A stretch of 33,711 nucleotides of DNA from Candidatus Poribacteria bacterium (lineage in GTDB: Bacteria; Poribacteria; WGA-4E; WGA-3G): the NCBI GenBank assembly GCA_021295735.1, contig JAGWBU010000083.1, positions 1-33,711 on the forward strand, written 5' to 3'. Position 1 is the stretch's first letter. Each line of letters opens with the position of its first letter. The notes under the pieces are model-generated. The model was not told the origin of the DNA and searched no databases. It was given only the letters and a program-made list of their open reading frames with translations. Both the position numbers and the translations under genes were made by a program. Below, one piece after another: positions 10,469 to 33,590 of the stretch.

Positions 10469-10492
10469 TTGTAGGAGGGGTTTTAAACCCCG
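10469..10492. repeat. TTGTAGGAG-led hairpin, copy 1
   Basis: TTGTAGGAG (10469-10477) followed by GGGG-ttttaaa-CCCC and CGA. The same lead sequence precedes different stems at 10544 and 20169. Confidence 0.5.
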
Positions 10493-10543
10493 ATAAACGC
10501 TTGGAGTTCGTAGTCGTGCAATTCATGGCACCTCTTACATTTC

Positions 10544-10569
10544 TTGTAGGAGCGCTTTGTAAGCGCGAT
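10544..10569. repeat. TTGTAGGAG-led hairpin, copy 2
   Basis: TTGTAGGAG followed by GCGCTT-tgt-AAGCGC and CGAT. The upstream CTTACATTT is shared with copy 3 at 20169, where the stem is quite different (CGACC/GGTCG). Confidence 0.5.
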
Positions 10570-10577
10570 GCATAGTA

Positions 10578-10600
10578 GCCAGCGCGCTCCGCGTGCTGGC
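10578..10600. repeat. GGA-loop hairpin
   Basis: GCCAGCGCGC-tcc-GCGTGCTGGC, ten pairs with one G:T wobble. Read on the other strand the loop is GGA, as in the hairpins at 6292-6308 and 11273-11289. Confidence 0.5.
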
Positions 10601-10758
10601 CGTCGCGCCTTTTGTGGAAGCACTTTAGTAAGAAGCGCGCGATATATTGTTGTTGAAAACGGTTCACACATCAGTATAAATTCGTTTTCAATAATACAGA
10701 GTGATAAAGTTTGTAGGTTGGGTTGGGTAGAGTTTGCGAAACCCATAAATCAACGCTA

Positions 10759-10815
10759 TGAATGCCTTTATGGCATTCAGCCAAATCAACGCAGCATGCG
10801 CGTATGGCATGCTGC
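10759..10815. repeat. Two adjacent hairpins joined by the CCAAATCAACGC linker
   Basis: TGAATGCC-tttat-GGCATTCA (10759-10779), then the linker GCCAAATCAACGC, then GCAGCATGC-gcgtatg-GCATGCTGC (10791-10815). The same 9-bp second stem recurs at 23727-23763 with a different loop. Confidence 0.6.
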
Positions 10816-10900
10816 GGGCGTCAATTTAAGGATTTATTTCAGGTTTCACACATTTTAACCCAAACAACACCGGAACCCAATTGTAGGGGCGGGTCTCCGG

Positions 10901-11060
10901 TGAATGCCAAAAGGCATTCATACCCGGTGAATGACTAAAGACGAATGCGCTTGGTAGAATACGCTTTTGGTATTCTACATTTTGGTGCCCGCCAGTTGTT
11001 TGAATACATCAGCAATGGCGGGGCACAGAGACCCCACCAAATGCCAAAAAGCGCATTTGG
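10901..11060. repeat. Three more variable-stem hairpins
   Basis: TGAATGCC-aaaa-GGCATTCA (10901-10920), GTAGAATAC-gcttttg-GTATTCTAC (10954-10978) and CCAAATGC-caaaaagc-GCATTTGG (11037-11060), the last running directly into CGTTGATTTGGC. The stems differ, but the loops and adjacent pairs resemble CCAAAAGCG or its complement. Confidence 0.6.
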
Positions 11061-11363
11061 CGTTGATTTGGCCCTACAAGGTGTGCCAGGATTTATCCCC
11101 TAAATTGACACCTATGGGGGTAGAGTTTGCGAAACCCAACCTACTTATAACTAATGTAAGAGGCGCAATGAATTGCGCGACTACAAACGCTGATATTCTT
11201 AAAATCCGCGAAATCTGTGTAATCCGTATCATCTGTGATTCAGACAACAAAATCCAACACAAAGAGGTTGACGGCACACGGAGTGTGCCTACTACTTTTA
11301 ATCGCACATCTAAATCGGTTATTTATAAACTACCGTATTAAAACCAATTATTGAGGTATAAAA

Positions 11364-12380
11364 ATGTTTCAAAACCTATCGATTCAATCTATTGGGGTTG
11401 CACTGTTAATAGCAGCGCTTATGATTCCATTAGCTTTAGCGGAGAATGAAGTGGAAAAACCGAAAGAACTTAAAGTGGGCATGATAGCCCCAGATTTTAC
11501 GTTGAAAGATGAAACCGGGACCGAACGTAGTCTCAGTGAATTCTTAGGAAAGAAAAGCGTTGTCCTCGCCTTTTATCCGAAAGACTTTACCGGTGGCTGA
11601 ACAGCCGAACTCCAGTCGCTCCGGGATAAATTGAGCGACATAAAAGAAACCGAAACTGTCTTGTTCGGTGTCAGTGTAGACAACGTTGAGTCGCATAAAA
11701 AATTTAAAGAACAAGAAAAGTTCGGATTTTCATTGTTGGCTGATACTGAATTTGAGGTAAGCAAGCAGTACAGCGGGGTTATGGAAAGGTTTAACGCTTC
11801 AAAACGGACGACTTTCATTATTGATAAGGCAGGATATATCCGTGCAATTGATAAAAAAGTCAAAGTGCAGACGCATGGTGAAGATGTTGTAAAACTGCTT
11901 AAGAAAGCACTGCCAAAAATAGAAGTTGGGCAGCCTGCTCCCGATTTTATCGCCAGGGATGGCGCAGGAAAAACACACCAACTCAGCAAGTTACAGGACA
12001 AAAAGAACGTGGTTTTAGCGTTTTATCCGCGTGATTTTGGGCGTGGCTGAACGGCTGAAGTTTGCTCGCTCCGTGATGAGTCGAGTAGTTTTGCTGAACA
12101 GGATGTCCAGGTCTTTGGGATTACTATCAATGATGCTGAGTCACATCAGAAATTTTCGAAAGAAAATGAACTGAATTTTCCACTGCTGATGGATACAGAA
12201 AAGAATCTTGCCTTACTCTTTGGTGCTGCTGCAGAAAAATCCGACAAACGTTTCAAGCGCTTGACGGTAATCATTGACAAAGCAGGAAAAATCGTGAAAA
12301 TTGACAAAGAGGTCAATCCAAGCACACACGGGTCAGATTTAGTGGATTTCTTCAAAACCGTTGATGCGTCAAAAGAATAA
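11364..12380 (+). CDS. Exported tandem peroxiredoxin, double selenoprotein (TGA read as Sec at residues 79 and 229)
   Basis: 338 residues if the in-frame TGA codons at 11598-11600 and 12048-12050 are read as selenocysteine. A signal peptide (LLIAALMIPLALA, cleavage likely after residue 26) precedes two AhpC/TSA (BCP-type) peroxiredoxin domains, about 36-185 and 187-335. In each, TGA falls exactly on the peroxidatic Cys: FYPKDFTGG-U-TAELQSLRD and FYPRDFGRG-U-TAEVCSLRD. Frame and homology continue past both codons to the TAA at 12378. A hairpin begins 15 bases after each TGA. Domain 2 keeps a Cys five residues later (Cys234), the BCP resolving position; domain 1 has Gln84 there. Expected role: thiol-dependent peroxide reduction outside the cytoplasm. 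A pseudogene with two stops is the alternative, made unlikely by the placement. Confidence 0.88.
11598..11639 (+). promoter_or_regulatory. Candidate bacterial SECIS element 1
   Basis: After the TGA (11598-11600), GTCGCTC (11615-11621) pairs perfectly with GAGCGAC (11633-11639), leaving an 11-base loop CGGGATAAATT with the early G residues typical of SelB-binding hairpins. The stem starts 15 bases past the TGA. It lies inside the coding sequence, as bacterial SECIS elements do. Confidence 0.65.
12048..12085 (+). promoter_or_regulatory. Candidate bacterial SECIS element 2
   Basis: After the TGA (12048-12050), CTCGCT (12065-12070) pairs with AG-t-CGAG (12079-12085, one bulged T), with loop CCGTGATG. 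The stem starts 15 bases past the TGA, the same distance as in element 1, and the string CGCTCCGNGAT is shared. Part of that identity is explained by the conserved SLRD codons. Confidence 0.5.
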
Positions 12381-20168: not shown

Positions 20169-20195
20169 TTGTAGGAGCGACCTCCTGGTCGTGAC
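20169..20195. repeat. TTGTAGGAG-led hairpin, copy 3
   Basis: TTGTAGGAG then CGACC-tcct-GGTCG and TGAC. It shares CTTACATTT plus the lead sequence with the copy at 10544, but the stem is unrelated in sequence. Confidence 0.5.
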
Positions 20196-23726: not shown

Positions 23727-23775
23727 GCAGCATGCCACACGGCGTTGATTTGGCGCATGCTGCGTTGATTTGGCA
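23727..23775. repeat. GCAGCATGC hairpin with GCGTTGATTTGG in the loop
   Basis: GCAGCATGC (23727-23735) and GCATGCTGC (23755-23763) are the same stem as at 10791-10815, but the 19-base loop now contains GGCGTTGATTTGG, and a second GCGTTGATTTGGCA follows. Confidence 0.55.
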
Positions 23776-25995: not shown

Positions 25996-27312
25996 CTAAT
26001 CCGTTCTAAGTGCTTCAACAGGTGTGAGTTTTGCCGCCTTGTGTGCAGGGTAAAGCCCAAAAAACACGCCAATAGCGACAGATACAAGCAAAGCAATGAA
26101 CATTGTTTCAAATGAAATAACTGAAGGCCAGTTACTGCCTTCCCACACAAACTTGGAAATGAGTGCAGCAGTGCCTTGCCCCATAAAAACACCTAAAATT
26201 GACCCAAGAATTCCTCCCATTAAAGTTAGAACGGATGCCTCAATCAAGAATTGCGTTATGATGTCGTTGAAGGTTGCGCCGAGTGCTTTACGCAGTCCAA
26301 TTTCTTTCGTGCGGTCAGTTACGGATACGAGCATGATATTCATCACACCGATACCTGCAACCATCAAAGCAATCCCCGCTATACCGCCCATTAAGGCTTT
26401 CATGACTAAACCAACTTTATTGGCAGTTGCCAATTCCTCTTCGGCCGTCCAATAGTTATATTCCTCGCCTGTGTTGTTGTGTATTCTACCTAAAATCTGT
26501 TTTGAATCCGATATTGCAAGCGGAATTGTGTCTATGTCTACAGCTTCGACGCGAATCCGTTCAACATCTTGGCGCCCTTTAAAACGTTCTTGGAGTGTAG
26601 TTATCGGAATGATGAACCTATCATCCCAACCGGTAGTGTCCATGGCATCGCCCTTCTCTTCCATCACACCGATGACCTTAAGGCGCACCTCATATAGTCC
26701 ACTCTTACCCCGCCAATAAGTAGGTCGAGAAGCTTTTATCTCTTTCCCAACCGGGTCTTGATTGAGAAATACCTCTTCCGCAATTTTAGAACCGATCACA
26801 GCAACGCTGCTGGCAGCTTCTACCTCATCCGCGTTGAAAAATCTACCGCTTGAGGTGTACCAGTTGTGCGAACGATCATACCCAGCTGTTGACGCAACAA
26901 TTCGGGATTCTTTCTTACGTCCTTTGTAGCTCACGCTCCAGCCTGGCATATCATCTTCTGCAACCACATCAACGATACCGCGTGCATTCTTTAAGATTTC
27001 AAAAGCATCATCTGTTTCCAAATGCTCAGCGCGGTTTCTACGCCAACGACTCCTGCCTCTGACAGCTTCACCTGCTGCTCGACTTAATGTACCTGATTGC
27101 TTATCCCAATCATCTTTATAGATTTCAACAATCTTTGTGCCGCCAGTCCGTTCAATCTCTCGTAATACCATAGCCGCGGAACCGTCACCAACAGACACCA
27201 TACTGACGACAGAACCAACGCCGACAATTATTCCTAAAATTGTCAGGCTGGAGCGGAGCGGGTTTCGTCGCAAACTGGTGATGCCTAAAATAACACATTC
27301 AAATAAGTTCAT
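25996..27312 (-). CDS. MacB-type ABC transporter permease (438 aa)
   Basis: N-terminal membrane helix within SLRRNPLRSSLTILGIIVGVGSVVSMVSVG, a periplasmic MacB-type domain (about 45-285), then three FtsX-type helices with the conserved NIMLVSVTDRTKEIGLRKALGA, ending in the typical PVEALRTD. There is no ATP-binding domain, unlike MacB itself, so a separate ATPase is needed. AGGAGG ribosome site; 12 bases after the next permease in the transcript. It is the most diverged of the four permeases. Confidence 0.93.
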   Translation of the reverse strand: MNLFECVILGITSLRRNPLRSSLTILGIIVGVGSVVSMVSVGDGSAAMVLREIERTGGTKIVEIYKDDWDKQSGTLSRAAGEAVRGRSRWRRNRAEHLETDDAFEILKNARGIVDVVAEDDMPGWSVSYKGRKKESRIVASTAGYDRSHNWYTSSGRFFNADEVEAASSVAVIGSKIAEEVFLNQDPVGKEIKASRPTYWRGKSGLYEVRLKVIGVMEEKGDAMDTTGWDDRFIIPITTLQERFKGRQDVERIRVEAVDIDTIPLAISDSKQILGRIHNNTGEEYNYWTAEEELATANKVGLVMKALMGGIAGIALMVAGIGVMNIMLVSVTDRTKEIGLRKALGATFNDIITQFLIEASVLTLMGGILGSILGVFMGQGTAALISKFVWEGSNWPSVISFETMFIALLVSVAIGVFFGLYPAHKAAKLTPVEALRTD

Positions 27313-27324
27313 TTAGACCTCCTC

Positions 27325-28626
27325 TTACTCAGTGCGGAGTGCTTCTATCGGGGAAAGGGCGGACGCTTTTAGTGCAGGATAGAGTCCAAAAGAGATACCA
27401 ATCAACGCAGAAAATGAGACGGAAATAATAACCCACTGCATAGAGATGACTGAGGGCCAATCCGGCACCATCTTGACGATCTTCACAGCAAGAAGTGCCA
27501 TACCTTCGCCTGCGAGATAACCTATCCCAACACCGATAGCACCACCTATAATGCACATCACAATTGACTCTATAAGAAACTGTAGCATAATATCTAAGCG
27601 TTTAGCGCCAAGTGCTTTCCGAAGACCGATTTCACGCGTGCGTTCACTAACTGCTACCAACATCATATTCATTATTCCAATACCACCGACAAGCAGCGAA
27701 AAACCTGCAATGCTACCCAATGCAATTTTTATCACTTTACTAATTTTATCTAACTGCGCCATACCTTCACGCATATCTCTGAGACTGAAGAAATCATCCT
27801 GATTCTTATGGCGTGTTCTCATGACTGCTTTCACCTCTTCTATTGCTTTCGGAACATCGTCAACGGTGTTGGCGTGAACAGATAACATTACAATGTGATC
27901 GTTACCGGTAAAACGCTCTTGTGCCGTTGTGATGGGGATGAAAACCATATCGTCAAGGTTCCATCCGAATCGAAGACTTCTGCCACGGCCTTCCATCGTT
28001 CCCACTACGGTAAAACGTTCAGCGATCCGGACATGATCCCCTCTGCCATATCTATCAAATCTGCCTCCACCTCTACCGATTTTGATTTCCTCGTTCATAG
28101 GAGATCTGTTACCGAATAGGTTAAATGCAACCTCAGTGCCTAAAACACAAACTTTCGCTTTGTTTTCAATATCCTCATCGGAAATAAAACGTCCTTCCTG
28201 AATTTTCCAGTCCATCGCTTCCGAAAATGAGGAATTAACACCATTATAACCGCTGCGAGTTTCAGACCCATCATTAGTTTGAATCTGGACACCCCGCCAT
28301 TCTGGAATTCTGGGGACAACAACCTTCACCGATGGACATTCCGCCTCAATAGCTAATACGTCTTCGTACTTGAAATATTCGTTGCTACGGTTCGGCATCC
28401 AACGACTTCCAACTCGCTTGTAGCTGCTGCGATACATTGTGAATTGGTTGACACCACCCAGTTTTTGTGCATCTTGTAACACAATTTCTTTAGCACCATC
28501 GCCTATTGAGATCATCGCAAGCACAGAGGCAACACCGATGATAATACCAAGCATTGTTAGCAACGATCGCAGTTTATTGCTACGAATTGCAGAAACCCCA
28601 ACGGATAATCCCTCAAATATGCGCAT
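27325..28626 (-). CDS. MacB-type ABC transporter permease (433 aa, paralogue A)
   Basis: One of three close paralogues of identical length (with 30606-31907 and 32289-33590). N-terminal helix AIRSNKLRSLLTMLGIIIGVASVLAMISIG, periplasmic domain, and the FtsX block GGIGIMNMMLVAVSERTREIGLRKALGAK, ending SPIEALRTE. GGAGA ribosome site. With the 438-residue permease and the adaptor it forms a downstream transcription unit, now separated from the other paralogues by the TcmP pair. Confidence 0.93.
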   Translation of the reverse strand: MRIFEGLSVGVSAIRSNKLRSLLTMLGIIIGVASVLAMISIGDGAKEIVLQDAQKLGGVNQFTMYRSSYKRVGSRWMPNRSNEYFKYEDVLAIEAECPSVKVVVPRIPEWRGVQIQTNDGSETRSGYNGVNSSFSEAMDWKIQEGRFISDEDIENKAKVCVLGTEVAFNLFGNRSPMNEEIKIGRGGGRFDRYGRGDHVRIAERFTVVGTMEGRGRSLRFGWNLDDMVFIPITTAQERFTGNDHIVMLSVHANTVDDVPKAIEEVKAVMRTRHKNQDDFFSLRDMREGMAQLDKISKVIKIALGSIAGFSLLVGGIGIMNMMLVAVSERTREIGLRKALGAKRLDIMLQFLIESIVMCIIGGAIGVGIGYLAGEGMALLAVKIVKMVPDWPSVISMQWVIISVSFSALIGISFGLYPALKASALSPIEALRTE

Positions 28627-28929
28627 TTCTTGTCTCCAAAGACTTATAAAAAGATTAAACTTTCATGCCTTGTAATTTAGACAGAAAAAAGCAGATAAGG
28701 TTCGGACAATTAGAAAAAGGTGAGAATACTATCTCCTTCCTTATTTGCCAAGAGTTTAATGATGTTATTTGGAACACAATTATGCTATTTTTGACGTTTT
28801 AATTAGAAAAAAGGTTTATTGTAAAGTGAATGTGATTAAATTGTGTATAAAACTTATTTGACAAAATTCAACGAAAACTGGTATAATGTGATATAGTGAT
28901 AATTTGTTTAACTTAAATCGGGGAGCAGG
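28627..28929. other. AT-rich divergent intergenic region
   Basis: No gene. It separates the minus-strand permease from the plus-strand TcmP gene and is clearly more AT-rich than its surroundings. It holds the consensus promoter at 28858-28887; a promoter for the permease on the other strand must also lie here, but I cannot place it. Confidence 0.6.
28858..28887 (+). promoter_or_regulatory. Consensus sigma70 promoter for the TcmP pair
   Basis: TTGACA (28858-28863), 18-bp spacer, TATAAT (28882-28887): both hexamers are perfect. It is the strongest-looking promoter in the window, about 40 bases before the ATG at 28930. Confidence 0.75.
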
Positions 28930-29838
28930 ATGAATACTATTGGTCAGAGTTTTGGTGGAAACTGGACAGAGCAAAAGTTGGATTGTGTGCGGAAATATCT
29001 GAAAGCTTACACAACGATTATGAATAAGCAGCCATTTAAATTTGCTTATATAGATGCCTTTGCAGGAACTGGCTATCGTGAACTCATGCTTGATGAAGAT
29101 GAAAGTGAAACATTATTTCCAGAACTTGACTCTCAAGAGGTAATCAACTTTCGGCAAGGTTCGGCACGTAATGCTCTGGAAGCAGAACCGCCGTTTGAGA
29201 AATATATTTTTATAGAAGAAGATAAGGAAAATTACTCCGAACTGGAAAAACTCACCGAAGAATTCTCTAAAAAAAATATTGAGTGTAGACGTACGGATGC
29301 AAATGAATATTTGACTGATGTTTGTAATAAGAATTGGGAACAACATCGGGCGTTAGTATTTCTCGATCCATTTGGTATGCAGGTAGAATGGAAGACAATA
29401 AAATTAATTGCCGACACACAGGCTATTGATTTATGGTTACTTTTCCCAATTGGCACCGTCAACAGGTTGCTAAAAAGGAATAGTGATATTCGTCAGTCTA
29501 TACGGGAAAAACTAAACCAATTTTTGGGTGAAGAAGGTTGGTATAAGGTGTTCTACAAACTGGCTTATGAAAATTCACTATTTGGTGAAGTTGAGCGATG
29601 GGAAAAAGTTGGTAATATATTTACAGAAATTGAACAATACTTCATGAAGCGACTACAAGGAATTTTTGCCGGTATAGCAACTAATCCGCTTTCTCTACGT
29701 AATTCAAAAAATGTTCCATTGTACCTGTTGTGTTTTGCAGCTGGGAATCCAAAAGGTGCCCCAATTGCAGTTAAAATTGCAGAAGACATCCTTTTAAAAG
29801 AGTTGTGCCAAGGATCCTCATTACAACAGTTAGATTAG
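28930..29838 (+). CDS. tcmP: Three-Cys-motif partner protein TcmP
   Basis: 302 residues. The TcmP family is defined by its pairing with three-Cys Gp37/Gp68-type proteins, as here. The N-terminus WTEQKLDCVRKYLKAY is typical. YIDAFAGTG (about 40-48) resembles SAM-binding motif I, and FLDPFGMQVEW (about 145-155) resembles a methyltransferase motif IV of the DPPY type, so a methyltransferase-like fold is likely. Ribosome site GGGGAG close to the ATG. 21 bases separate it from the partner gene. Biological role not established. Confidence 0.88.
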   Translation: MNTIGQSFGGNWTEQKLDCVRKYLKAYTTIMNKQPFKFAYIDAFAGTGYRELMLDEDESETLFPELDSQEVINFRQGSARNALEAEPPFEKYIFIEEDKENYSELEKLTEEFSKKNIECRRTDANEYLTDVCNKNWEQHRALVFLDPFGMQVEWKTIKLIADTQAIDLWLLFPIGTVNRLLKRNSDIRQSIREKLNQFLGEEGWYKVFYKLAYENSLFGEVERWEKVGNIFTEIEQYFMKRLQGIFAGIATNPLSLRNSKNVPLYLLCFAAGNPKGAPIAVKIAEDILLKELCQGSSLQQLD

Positions 29839-29859
29839 AATTTCCATAAGGAGCAATAA

Positions 29860-30600
29860 ATGGCAACCTTATCTTCAAAAATCGAATGGACTGAATCTAC
29901 TTGGAACCCTGTGCGCGGCTGTACTCGTGTATCTGAAGGGTGTAGGTTTTGTTACGCTGAACGCATTGCAGCACGGTTTTCTGGTAAAGGCTTGGCTTAC
30001 GAAGGTTTTGCAAAAAACACTAAAGCTGGACCACAATGGACACATAAAGTTGACCCTATTCGCGCTTTACTTAATGAACCATTAAAATGGAAAAAACCCC
30101 GCCGAATTTTTGTTAACTCTATGAGTGATCTGTTCCATGAAGAGATCAAATTGGATTATATTCAAGAAGTTTTTTCTGTGATGGAAGAGGCGAGTTGGCA
30201 TAAATTCCAAGTTTTGACAAAACGAGCATGGCGGCTTTTGGAATATAGTCCGAAGTTGCCGTGGCCTTCGAACGTTTGGATGGGGGTTAGCGTTGAGGAT
30301 AACCGCGTGATGGATCGGATTGACGATTTACGTCAAACGGGTGCGAAAATTAAATTTCTTTCGCTTGAACCACTTATTGGTCCTCTCCCGCATTTGGATT
30401 TGAGTGGTATAGATTGGGTTATCGTGGGTGGAGAGTCTGGTCCCGGTGCCCGCGAAATGAAGGAGGAATGGGTTGTTGACATCAAAGACCAGTGTGAAAA
30501 AGAAAATGTGTTATTTTTCTTTAAACAGTGGGGTGGCACGCGCAAATCAAAAACGGGTAGAGAGTTGGATGGACAAACTTATGACGAAATGCCAGGATAA
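29860..30600 (+). CDS. Phage Gp37/Gp68-type (DUF5131) three-Cys protein
   Basis: 246 residues. MATLSSKIEWTESTWNPVRGCTRVSEGCRFCYAE carries Cys21-x6-Cys28-x2-Cys31, the three-Cys signature thought to bind an iron-sulfur cluster. MSDLFHE, VLTKRAWRLLEY, WMGVSVED and VIVGGESGPGAREM are all typical of the family, which is frequent in phages. AAGGAG ribosome site. Its stop lies 5 bases from the stop of the convergent permease at 30606, so any read-through makes antisense RNA to the permease. Confidence 0.92.
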   Translation: MATLSSKIEWTESTWNPVRGCTRVSEGCRFCYAERIAARFSGKGLAYEGFAKNTKAGPQWTHKVDPIRALLNEPLKWKKPRRIFVNSMSDLFHEEIKLDYIQEVFSVMEEASWHKFQVLTKRAWRLLEYSPKLPWPSNVWMGVSVEDNRVMDRIDDLRQTGAKIKFLSLEPLIGPLPHLDLSGIDWVIVGGESGPGAREMKEEWVVDIKDQCEKENVLFFFKQWGGTRKSKTGRELDGQTYDEMPG

Positions 30601-30605
30601 GGAAT

Positions 30606-31907
30606 TTATTCAGTACGCAATGCCTCAATAGGTGAAAGTGAAGACGCTTTTATTGCTGGATATAACCCAAAAGAGATACCGATTAACGCTGAGAACGATA
30701 TTGAAATCAAAACCCATTCTGTTGAAACAACCGAGGGCCATTCAGGCACAATTTTGGCGATTTTAACAGCGAGAAGTGCCATTCCCTGCCCAGCAAAGAC
30801 GCCCAGACCAATTCCTATCAGCCCTCCCAAACCACACATCACAACTGCTTCCATTAGGAATTGAATAAGAATGTCAAATCGTTTTGCGCCCAGAGCCTTC
30901 CGCAGTCCTATTTCACGCGTCCGTTCGCTGACAGCAACCAGCATCATGTTCATAATACCGATACCACCGACAAGCAGCGAAAAACCAGCAATACTACCCA
31001 ACGCTATCTTAATCACTCTGCTGATTTTCTCCAACTGCGCCATACCTTCACGCATATCAAAGATTCTGATGAAATCATCTTGGTTCCTGTGCCGCTTGCG
31101 GATGACTGCTTTTACTTCTTCTATTGCCTTCGGAACATCTTCAACAGTGTTTGCATAAACGACAATATCCTGTATCCGATCATCGCCAGTAAAACGTTCT
31201 TGCGTGGTTGAAAACGGCATAAAGACAAGACCGTCGTAACTCCAACCAAATCGGAGACTTCTGCCTCTTGGTGTCATTGTTCCTACAACCGTAAAACGTT
31301 CGGTTGATCGCTTGCGGTCCCTACGGCCGTATCGGTCATAACGTCCGTCACCTTTTGCGATTTTTATTTCCTGGCCGAGCGGAGATTTATCACCGAATAA
31401 GTCAGTTGCAATCTCATCTCCAAGTACACAGACAGTCGCAGCATTTTCCACATCTTCATCAGAAATAAATCGTCCCTCTTGAATTTTCCAGTCCATTGAA
31501 GTATGATAGGTAGCATCTACACCATTATATCCAGCACGGGTTTGCGTGCCTCCTGCAGCTTCAATTAACGCACCTCTCCATTCTGGAATTCTTGGGGTCA
31601 CTGCCTTCACGGACGGACATTCAGCCTCAATTGCCAACACATCGTCGTATTTCATGTACTCGTTACTACGGATTCTAACCCATTGCGATCCTACCCGTTT
31701 ATACCATGTGCGATAGATAGTAAACTGGTTTGCCCCTCCCAGTTTTTGAGCATCACGCAAAACAATCTCCTTCGCACCATCACCGATTGAAATCATTGCA
31801 AGCACAGACGCAACGCCGATGATAATCCCAAGCATTGTTAGCAATGATCGCATCTTATTAGAGCGAATGGCGGTGATCCCGACAAATAGTGCCTCTATCA
31901 ATTGCAT
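30606..31907 (-). CDS. MacB-type ABC transporter permease (433 aa, paralogue B)
   Basis: Same architecture and length as paralogue A: helix AIRSNKMRSLLTMLGIIIGVASVLAMISIG, periplasmic domain with GYNGVDATYHTSMDWKIQEG, FtsX block and SPIEALRTE end. GGAGA ribosome site. Visibly closer to paralogues A and C than to the 438-residue permease. It is separated from paralogue C by a 381-base gap holding a mobile-like element. Confidence 0.93.
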   Translation of the reverse strand: MQLIEALFVGITAIRSNKMRSLLTMLGIIIGVASVLAMISIGDGAKEIVLRDAQKLGGANQFTIYRTWYKRVGSQWVRIRSNEYMKYDDVLAIEAECPSVKAVTPRIPEWRGALIEAAGGTQTRAGYNGVDATYHTSMDWKIQEGRFISDEDVENAATVCVLGDEIATDLFGDKSPLGQEIKIAKGDGRYDRYGRRDRKRSTERFTVVGTMTPRGRSLRFGWSYDGLVFMPFSTTQERFTGDDRIQDIVVYANTVEDVPKAIEEVKAVIRKRHRNQDDFIRIFDMREGMAQLEKISRVIKIALGSIAGFSLLVGGIGIMNMMLVAVSERTREIGLRKALGAKRFDILIQFLMEAVVMCGLGGLIGIGLGVFAGQGMALLAVKIAKIVPEWPSVVSTEWVLISISFSALIGISFGLYPAIKASSLSPIEALRTE

Positions 31908-32288
31908 TTTATTCTCCGAAAATTTTAAGATATTGACAATATATAAAAATTTTAGACACCTGATGGCAAGCGTGCTTTGTAAACATAACGATCTACAATT
32001 GCAATTAATGTGTTGAAATTCAATCTTGTTTTCAACTTTAGACGTGATTATAAAAATAGGTTTATTGGGATAGGTTCAAGGTGTGGAATATATTTGAATT
32101 CTTTTATATTGAAATTCATAATTATTTGGACATTCTGTTCTTATGCGGATTTCAAACACACGGTAAATGTCCGAGGCGACAAGTCATGGTGAATACCATA
32201 CGCGTATTCGCCCAAGTGCGCTTGGCGTTGATTTGGCAATGAATAAAATGTCCAGTTATTTTTCGATTTTACTATAAACTGATAGTAC
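31908..32288. other. Intergenic region between permease paralogues
   Basis: No gene. 31908-32104 is AT-rich with nothing I can name, though it should contain the promoter of paralogue B if that gene is not co-transcribed with C. 32105-32276 is the palindromic element listed separately. Confidence 0.55.
32105..32276. mobile_element. TATAGT-ended palindromic element, copy 3
   Basis: 172 bp. Left arm 32105-32134 (TATATTGAAATTCATAATTA, ending GGACATT) and right arm 32247-32276 (AATGTCCAGTTATT, ending TTTACTATA) pair at 22 of 30 positions. The core carries GAATAC-catacgc-GTATTC (32191-32209), CCAAG-tgcg-CTTGG (32212-32225) and GCGTTGATTTGGCA, which are hairpin repeats also found in the 10.4-11.4 kb island. 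Confidence 0.65.
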
Positions 32289-33590
32289 TTATTCTTTTCG
32301 TAGGGCTTCAATAGGGGAAAGCATAGATGCTTTGATTGCTGGATACAATCCAAAAGATATTCCGATTGCAGCGGAAAATAATACTGAAATCAAAACCCAC
32401 TGTGCAGAAACAACTGCAGGCCATTCAGGCACAATTTTAGCGATCTTAACTGCGATAACTGACATGCTTTCACCAACGAAAATACCTAAACCGATACCTA
32501 TAATTCCGCCGACTGCACACATTGTAATTGACTCAATGAGAAATTGAAACATTATGTCAAGTGGTTTTGCGCCGAGTGCTTTCCGCAAACCGATCTCACG
32601 CGTGCGCTCTGTTACTGCAACTAACATCATGTTCATAATGCCAATACCGCCAACAAGCAATGAAAAACCTGCGATACTACCCAATGCGATTTTAATCATC
32701 TTGCTTATTTTTTCCAGCTGCCGTATGCCTTTCCGCATCTCATAGATTTTGACGAAATTGTCTTCGCCTTTATGCCGGCTGCGGATCACTTCTTTTACTT
32801 CTCGAACTGCATTAGGAACATCCTCAACAGTGTTTGCGTAGACCACGATTTCTTGAATCTTATCATCACCAGTGAAACGTTCTTGAGTGGTTGTTATCGG
32901 AAAAAAGACCATGCTATCAAAACTCCAACCGAATCGCAGACTTCTACCTCTTGGCATCATTGTGCCTACAACCGTGAACCTTTCGGTTATACGTCTACTA
33001 CGCCTCTTTCCCCGATGATCATAATATCTTACACGCCGGGCCATTTTTATCTCCTGCCCAAGCGGTGATTTGTTGCCAAATAGATCGGTTGCCACCTCAT
33101 CGCCAAGCACGCAAATTTTGGCTGCGTTTTTTACGTCTTCATCTGTAATAAATCGTCCATCTTGCAGTTTCCAATCCATTGCAGTTTTAAAAGATGAATC
33201 TACACCGTTATATCCAGCACGGGTTTCAGCACCACCAGGGGCTTGGATTAATATTCCTTTCCAATCTCGTATCCTTGGGGTGACATCACTCACCGTGGGA
33301 CATTCCGCTTTAATGGCAAGCACATCGCCGTAGTTTAGATATTCCTTTGTGCGGATTGGGATGTTGTGTTTTCCAAGTTTTTTCTTTGACCTGCGGTATA
33401 AAGTGAACTGGTTCGCACCACCGAGTTTTTGTGCATCTTGCAGGACAATCTCTTTTGCGCCATCTCCGATAGCTATCATTGCAAGCACTGCCGCTATACC
33501 GATTATTATGCCAAGCATCGTTAGTAACGAACGCATCTTGTTGGCACGTATCGCGGCGATTCCAATGGATAGCCCTTCAATTAAACTCAT
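32289..33590 (-). CDS. MacB-type ABC transporter permease (433 aa, paralogue C)
   Basis: Third of the close paralogues. Helix AIRANKMRSLLTMLGIIIGIAAVLAMIAIG, periplasmic domain with a basic segment MARRVRYYDHRGKRRSRR, FtsX block with LVAVTERTREIGLRKALGAK, end SPIEALRKE. The ribosome site is weak (GAGAAG). It is the first permease transcribed in this window; upstream sequence looks like the end of an insertion element, so it may have its own promoter within 33591-33640. Confidence 0.93.
   Translation of the reverse strand: MSLIEGLSIGIAAIRANKMRSLLTMLGIIIGIAAVLAMIAIGDGAKEIVLQDAQKLGGANQFTLYRRSKKKLGKHNIPIRTKEYLNYGDVLAIKAECPTVSDVTPRIRDWKGILIQAPGGAETRAGYNGVDSSFKTAMDWKLQDGRFITDEDVKNAAKICVLGDEVATDLFGNKSPLGQEIKMARRVRYYDHRGKRRSRRITERFTVVGTMMPRGRSLRFGWSFDSMVFFPITTTQERFTGDDKIQEIVVYANTVEDVPNAVREVKEVIRSRHKGEDNFVKIYEMRKGIRQLEKISKMIKIALGSIAGFSLLVGGIGIMNMMLVAVTERTREIGLRKALGAKPLDIMFQFLIESITMCAVGGIIGIGLGIFVGESMSVIAVKIAKIVPEWPAVVSAQWVLISVLFSAAIGISFGLYPAIKASMLSPIEALRKE

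Follow-up and report, generated by a model that had tools for sequence, protein, structure and literature searches.

Insertion sequences of the IS200/IS605 family recognize hairpins and insert next to a fixed 5' flanking target, in one orientation and without target duplication. Cyanobacterial small dispersed repeats, reportedly described by Elhai and others in 2008, are said to be very small, mobile, and found within other repeats. GTAG REPs are high-copy intergenic palindromes with GTAG 0-2 nt before the stem; their families differ by complementary stem changes, and matching repeats flank RAYT genes (Di Nocera 2013, PMC3733652; Quentin 2018, PMC6006769). CGTC-tagged REPs are palindromes with an unpaired tail and without a known dedicated transposase, and REPs have also been credited with RNA roles such as termination and mRNA end protection (PMC3733652). 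REPINs are short and mobile palindromes whose paired region shows compensatory changes (Bertels and Rainey 2011, PMC3116915).

The window (the whole 33,711-nt stretch of DNA analysed here) comes from a Candidatus Poribacteria MAG of 5.07 Mb in 230 contigs (completeness 93.5%, contamination 5.6%), in which runs of N often adjoin repeats. A dioxygenase gene and a peroxiredoxin gene flank a cluster of hairpins (Table 1). The hairpins listed in the original prediction have the named arms, with pairing close to that described, and they occur at a much higher density than chance would give: within 960 bp surrounding the finding there are five perfect stems of at least 8 bp, where about 0.1 would be expected (Poisson P ~1e-7). 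DNA folding gave z values of -2.5 to -10.9 for most window hairpins; the 11037 element scores z = -1.8 because its 5' arm can pair alternatively with its own tail, and the 6-bp hairpin at 32191-32209 does no better than shuffles in its 50-nt context (z -0.9). Six hairpins with related loops had been described as having six different stems; all are paired, but those at 10759 and 10901 have an identical stem, leaving five different stems among the six. All three GGA-loop hairpins (6292, 11273, and 10578) and all three TTGTAGGAG-led hairpins (10469, 10544, and 20169) are present, with the small corrections that 10578 contains one G-T pair and that the outer (foot) pair of 20169 is G-T. The pattern GCGTTGATTTGG has 203 copies genome-wide, versus one for the reversed pattern, and this copy number rules out chance or terminators as the source of the hairpins. 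A literature search on Poribacteria and palindromic repeats returned nothing on point. The original list mixes two kinds of element, GTAG-tagged REPs and a GTTGATTTGG-tailed unit.

Table 1. Repeats and hairpins in the window (window coordinates).
Feature	Position	Strand	Sequence, structure, and basis
GTAG-tagged REP, GGA-loop	6292..6314	-	minus strand reads GTAGCAGGCACGCTCCGCGTGCC; folding
GTAG-tagged REP	10469..10491	+	TTGTAGGAGGGGTTTTAAACCCC; read directly and folding
Decayed REP, GTAG-TC-GCGCAAT type	10510..10534	+	GTAGTCGTGCAATTCATGGCACCTC; intact family found elsewhere in genome analysis
GTAG-tagged REP	10544..10566	+	TTGTAGGAGCGCTTTGTAAGCGC; read directly and folding
GTAG-tagged REP	10575..10604	+	GTAGCCAGCGCGCTCCGCGTGCTGGCCGTC; read directly and folding
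GGGTAGAGTTTGCGAAACCCA repeat, left part of a host repeat split by the two units that follow	10725..10745	+	
Tailed unit, variant tail GCGTTGATTTA	10746..10780	-	stem TGAATGCC/GGCATTCA at 10759-10779
Tailed unit, AGC/GCT stem	10781..10816	-	arms CGCAGCATGC/GCATGCTGCG; hairpin 10790-10816, tail 10781-10792
GTAGGGGCGGGTCTC host REP, left half	10882..10899	+	right half TGCCCGCC resumes at 10986
Nested insert in GTAGGGGCGGGTCTC host REP	10900..10985	+	hairpin 10901-10920, arms TGAATGCC/GGCATTCA; hairpin 10954-10978, arms GTAGAATAC/GTATTCTAC
Tailed unit, 35 nt, between AGAGACCCCA and CCCTAC of host REP	11037..11071	+	CCAAATGCCAAAAAGCGCATTTGGCGTTGATTTGG; hairpin 11037-11060, arms CCAAATGC/GCATTTGG
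Second GGGTAGAGTTTGCGAAACCCA repeat	11118..11138	+	
GTAG-tagged REP	11156..11189	-	minus strand GTAGTCGCGCAATTCATTGCGCC; empty target site at 11165/11166
GTAG-tagged REP, GGA-loop	11273..11295	-	minus strand reads GTAGTAGGCACACTCCGTGTGCC; folding
GTAG-tagged REP, GAGCGACC family flanking C121 RAYT	20169..20193	+	
Tailed unit, AGC stem, in host REP of 11156	23728..23773	+	loop retains tail of a deleted nested unit
Tailed unit with nested GAATAC/GTATTC hairpin	32179..32236	+	nested hairpin 32191-32209; host site GAGGCG / CAATGAAT as in the 11156 REP

The peroxiredoxin gene (window 11364-12380, plus strand) encodes 338 aa with two tandem AhpC/TSA domains. It probably specifies a double selenoprotein with two predicted selenocysteines, since two in-frame TGA codons are read through at catalytic-cysteine positions (FYPKDFTGGU, FYPRDFGRGU). 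The first TGA is kept in 12 related loci, with a TCGCTC/GAGCGA hairpin after it, and on contig C204 the genome has selB and, adjacent to it, a weak tRNA-Sec-like match. Four adjacent ORFs of 433-438 aa on the minus strand (25996-33590) cross-match in DNA, and the two that were scanned are MacB/FtsX-type permeases.

GTAG ranks first among the 256 tetramers preceding perfect hairpins (130 of 9043, 7.6-fold). The TTGTAGGAG-led and GGA-loop hairpins carry the tag 0-3 nt 5' of a perfect stem, the latter on the opposite strand (GTAGTAGGCACACTCCGTGTGCC), and both agree with published descriptions of GTAG REPs (PMC3733652, PMC6006769). The genome has six Y1 genes, and the RAYT-type genes on contigs C121 and C132 adjoin GTAG-tagged repeats, although the C121 copy is broken by a stop. 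RAYTs flanked by their own repeats were found in both of these cases and in relatives at loci L293, L294, L297, and L299, where single RAYT genes are each flanked by a REP family with a constant tag and a different stem; the expectation that RAYT/Y1 genes would accompany the repeats was thus borne out for the GTAG kind. The gene-specific stems at these four loci are GTTCGGTT, GGCGCGTTT, GGCGAGGTT, and GGTGCGAT, with several copies each, and the sets are good material on the joint change of enzyme and stem specificity. A long inverted pair of GAAATCAACGGTATGAACGCC units precedes an IS200-like gene at a further locus (L301, G012:C51); the pair sits within a palindromic repeat of the gene's flank.

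The tailed unit is 33-35 nt long, with a stem of 7-8 bp, a CAWAMGC-like loop, and a 3' tail of 10-11 nt that reads CGTTGATTTGG or, before CTCC, CGTTGATTCA. It has no GTAG, and its left neighbours are CCCG, GGCG, and TTGG. The junctions are readable because units sit inside other repeats; counts of junctions and of ORF locations come from a sample of 1.57 Mb of the 5.07-Mb genome, and junction and stem tallies are of copies rather than independent events. The host GAGGYG^CAATGAATTGCGCGACTAC (also GAGGYG^CAATGAATTGCG), which is a GTAG REP read backwards, is empty in 48 cases and filled in 15, nine of them with exactly 34 nt. A second host, AGAGACCCCG^CCCTAC, is empty in five cases and filled in four, always with 35 nt, and AGTCCCG^TAGGGACG is empty and filled in five cases each. 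The window itself provides an empty site (11156-11189) and filled sites (23728, 32179, and 11037). A regular expression for the GTAGGGGCGGGTCTC host matched no filled case, though filled cases are visible by eye; variation in the junction base explains the miss. A single hairpin of 33-36 nt occupies most filled sites, orientation is identical in 31 of 31 inserts across four host repeats, and there is no target duplication beyond one shared G in units starting with A. CG is the left neighbour of 59 of 77 tailed units but makes up 4.9% of genome dinucleotides; most of the units without CG follow the TTGG of a preceding unit and therefore form 34-nt tandem arrays. The unit is also inserted in its own loop; the site is ATACG^CGCAT and the insert, 35 nt long, starts GGGAATGCC, and shortened remnants of such inserts occur in three related copies, including the one at 23728. 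ORFs of at least 150 codons make up 79% of the sample, yet they contain just 8 of the 118 copies sampled. Filled sites, empty sites, and their junctions together demonstrate that the tailed unit has inserted.

None of the described systems corresponds fully to this unit. Unlike GTAG REPs (PMC3733652, PMC6006769), it lacks GTAG, has the 3' tail, forms tandem arrays, and makes exact single-hairpin insertions. The unpaired tail and the lack of a known dedicated transposase are shared with CGTC-tagged REPs, but the tail is CGTTGATTTGG and a CGTC tag is found at neither end, which rules out that label. REPINs are similarly short and mobile with compensatory stem changes; however, the REPIN unit is an inverted doublet while the tailed unit is one hairpin, so that its size rules out this label as well. 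The resemblance to cyanobacterial small dispersed repeats, in being small and nested, is by description only, and the host phylum differs. The hairpin, the single orientation, and insertion on the 3' side of a short, fixed target that is not duplicated are common to the tailed unit and the IS200/IS605 family, but no transposase gene lies within or beside the unit. Among the matches listed from GTDB species genomes, 68 of 71 stretches are from Candidatus Poribacteria, for a pattern with 18 fixed bases that should give a handful of chance matches. Pattern searches found the unit in 18 of 18 genomes of the genus (2 to 143 copies per genome) and in 0 of 42 from other genera, while the reversed control pattern had 0 matches in relatives. 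The tailed unit is genus-restricted.

In 75 distinct tailed units, picked without regard to the outer pairs, 94.5% of cells are paired, compared with 83.0% in shuffles and at most 59% when partners are slid by 1-3 columns, and 74 both-side changes are observed against 15.9 in shuffles. Pairing is therefore kept while stems change, as had been proposed. The outer triplets are of the types CAA/TTG, AGC/GCT, TGA/TCA, CGA/TCG, and AGA/TCT, complementary in 54 of 67 copies in the source genome and 55 of 61 in relatives. The remaining 13 of 67 are mispaired and several join the arms of two subfamilies, so stems decaying without compensation, the outcome that would contradict the original prediction, do occur in part. 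The AGC/GCT stem has 65 exact copies in the source genome, 11 in the sister genome G003, and 0 in the 16 other genomes of the genus; this stem is new, having arisen in a single lineage and multiplied there. At the 10 loci with flanks matchable between species, no shared orthologous copy with a changed stem was found; the element is absent from the other species, including in a pair with 95-97% flank identity. This comparison leaves out L119 (motif inside a coding region) and L252/L177 (a record matched to itself), and the single locus flagged as shared is a different cluster. In eight relatives the cluster interval holds other sequence, from 72 bp upwards, with different hairpins or none. Compensation of one hairpin in place is consequently not supported: stems differ because separate subfamilies were inserted, and no single hairpin was observed to change and then be mended. 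In L250 (G005), the interval matching window 10476-11358 has an ORF (VYVYYFPTHRQNAVSKGKSSWECKIGQT...) in place of the hairpin cluster; its product presumably resembles a GIY-YIG/T5orf172 protein.

The hairpins are likely to be non-autonomous REP-type mobile palindromes of two overlapping populations, which built up between genes in a genus of Poribacteria and landed in each other, with only foldable copies being copied. Under this reading, the GTAG-tagged REPs would go with RAYT transposases, and each insertion of the tailed unit would place one hairpin on the 3' side of CG, always in the same orientation and without target duplication. Pairing would persist because copies unable to fold are not propagated, and new stems would arise by stepwise paired changes and then spread as subfamilies. 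Of the two options originally offered, selection on structure or copying of hairpins, what survives is that folding is apparently needed for copying, while compensation in place was not seen. Template switching at quasi-palindromes is an established mutation process in which one arm is rewritten from the other, independently of transposition, and it could account for both-side changes far above those in shuffles. It is nevertheless an unlikely source of these stems, since no orthologous hairpin has both arms changed, the elements are absent at the comparable loci, mispaired arm-swapped copies persist, and the five stem types can be connected by changing one pair at a time, with G-T intermediates like CGA/TTG, a pattern that fits ordinary substitution under selection. 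Even less probable is that pairing is maintained by selection on RNA folding for a role in place, such as termination or mRNA end protection: copies are almost wholly intergenic and stems contain G-T pairs, as such a role would allow, but an Rfam search of the window gave no match, the eight relatives have different or no hairpins in the same interval, and the exact target rule, single orientation, and nested and tandem copies indicate insertion.

Within the mobile-palindrome reading, the fixed 5' neighbour, one orientation, lack of duplication, and hairpin dependence suggest that copying would proceed via single-stranded DNA by an HuH/Y1 (RAYT-like) enzyme in trans. The enzyme for the tailed unit is probably a RAYT that works in trans or one that has meanwhile been lost, which is judged the most likely arrangement. 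A RAYT partner bracketed by tailed units was not encountered among the six Y1 loci of the genome and the same-genus Y1 loci read; G002 and G015 have no Y1 match at 1e-5 despite 13 and 16 tailed-unit copies, and copy number has no evident link with Y1 gene number across genomes. A more tentative proposal, possible though doubtful, is that the GTTGATTTGG-tailed unit is a separate hairpin-only mobile class of ~34 nt, a single-hairpin mover that is recognized through its fold and its tail and that a non-RAYT enzyme integrates 3' of CG. The tailed unit could instead be what is left of a REPIN or an IS200-like element, dying out after the loss of its transposase gene and now spreading only by repeat recombination. 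No partner gene was found, and arm-swapped and partly deleted copies reflect recombination and slippage; however, one stem subfamily reached 65 copies in one lineage and exact 34-nt inserts in unrelated host repeats are beyond repeat recombination, making this distinctly improbable.

Clean empty and filled sites are seldom to be had, which has kept open the question of how REP-type palindromes spread. Dozens of both, with exactly readable junctions, come from this one genome, together with a target side that is fixed and a stem subfamily that only two genomes have; it is therefore directly testable how large the moving unit is and whether it must pair.
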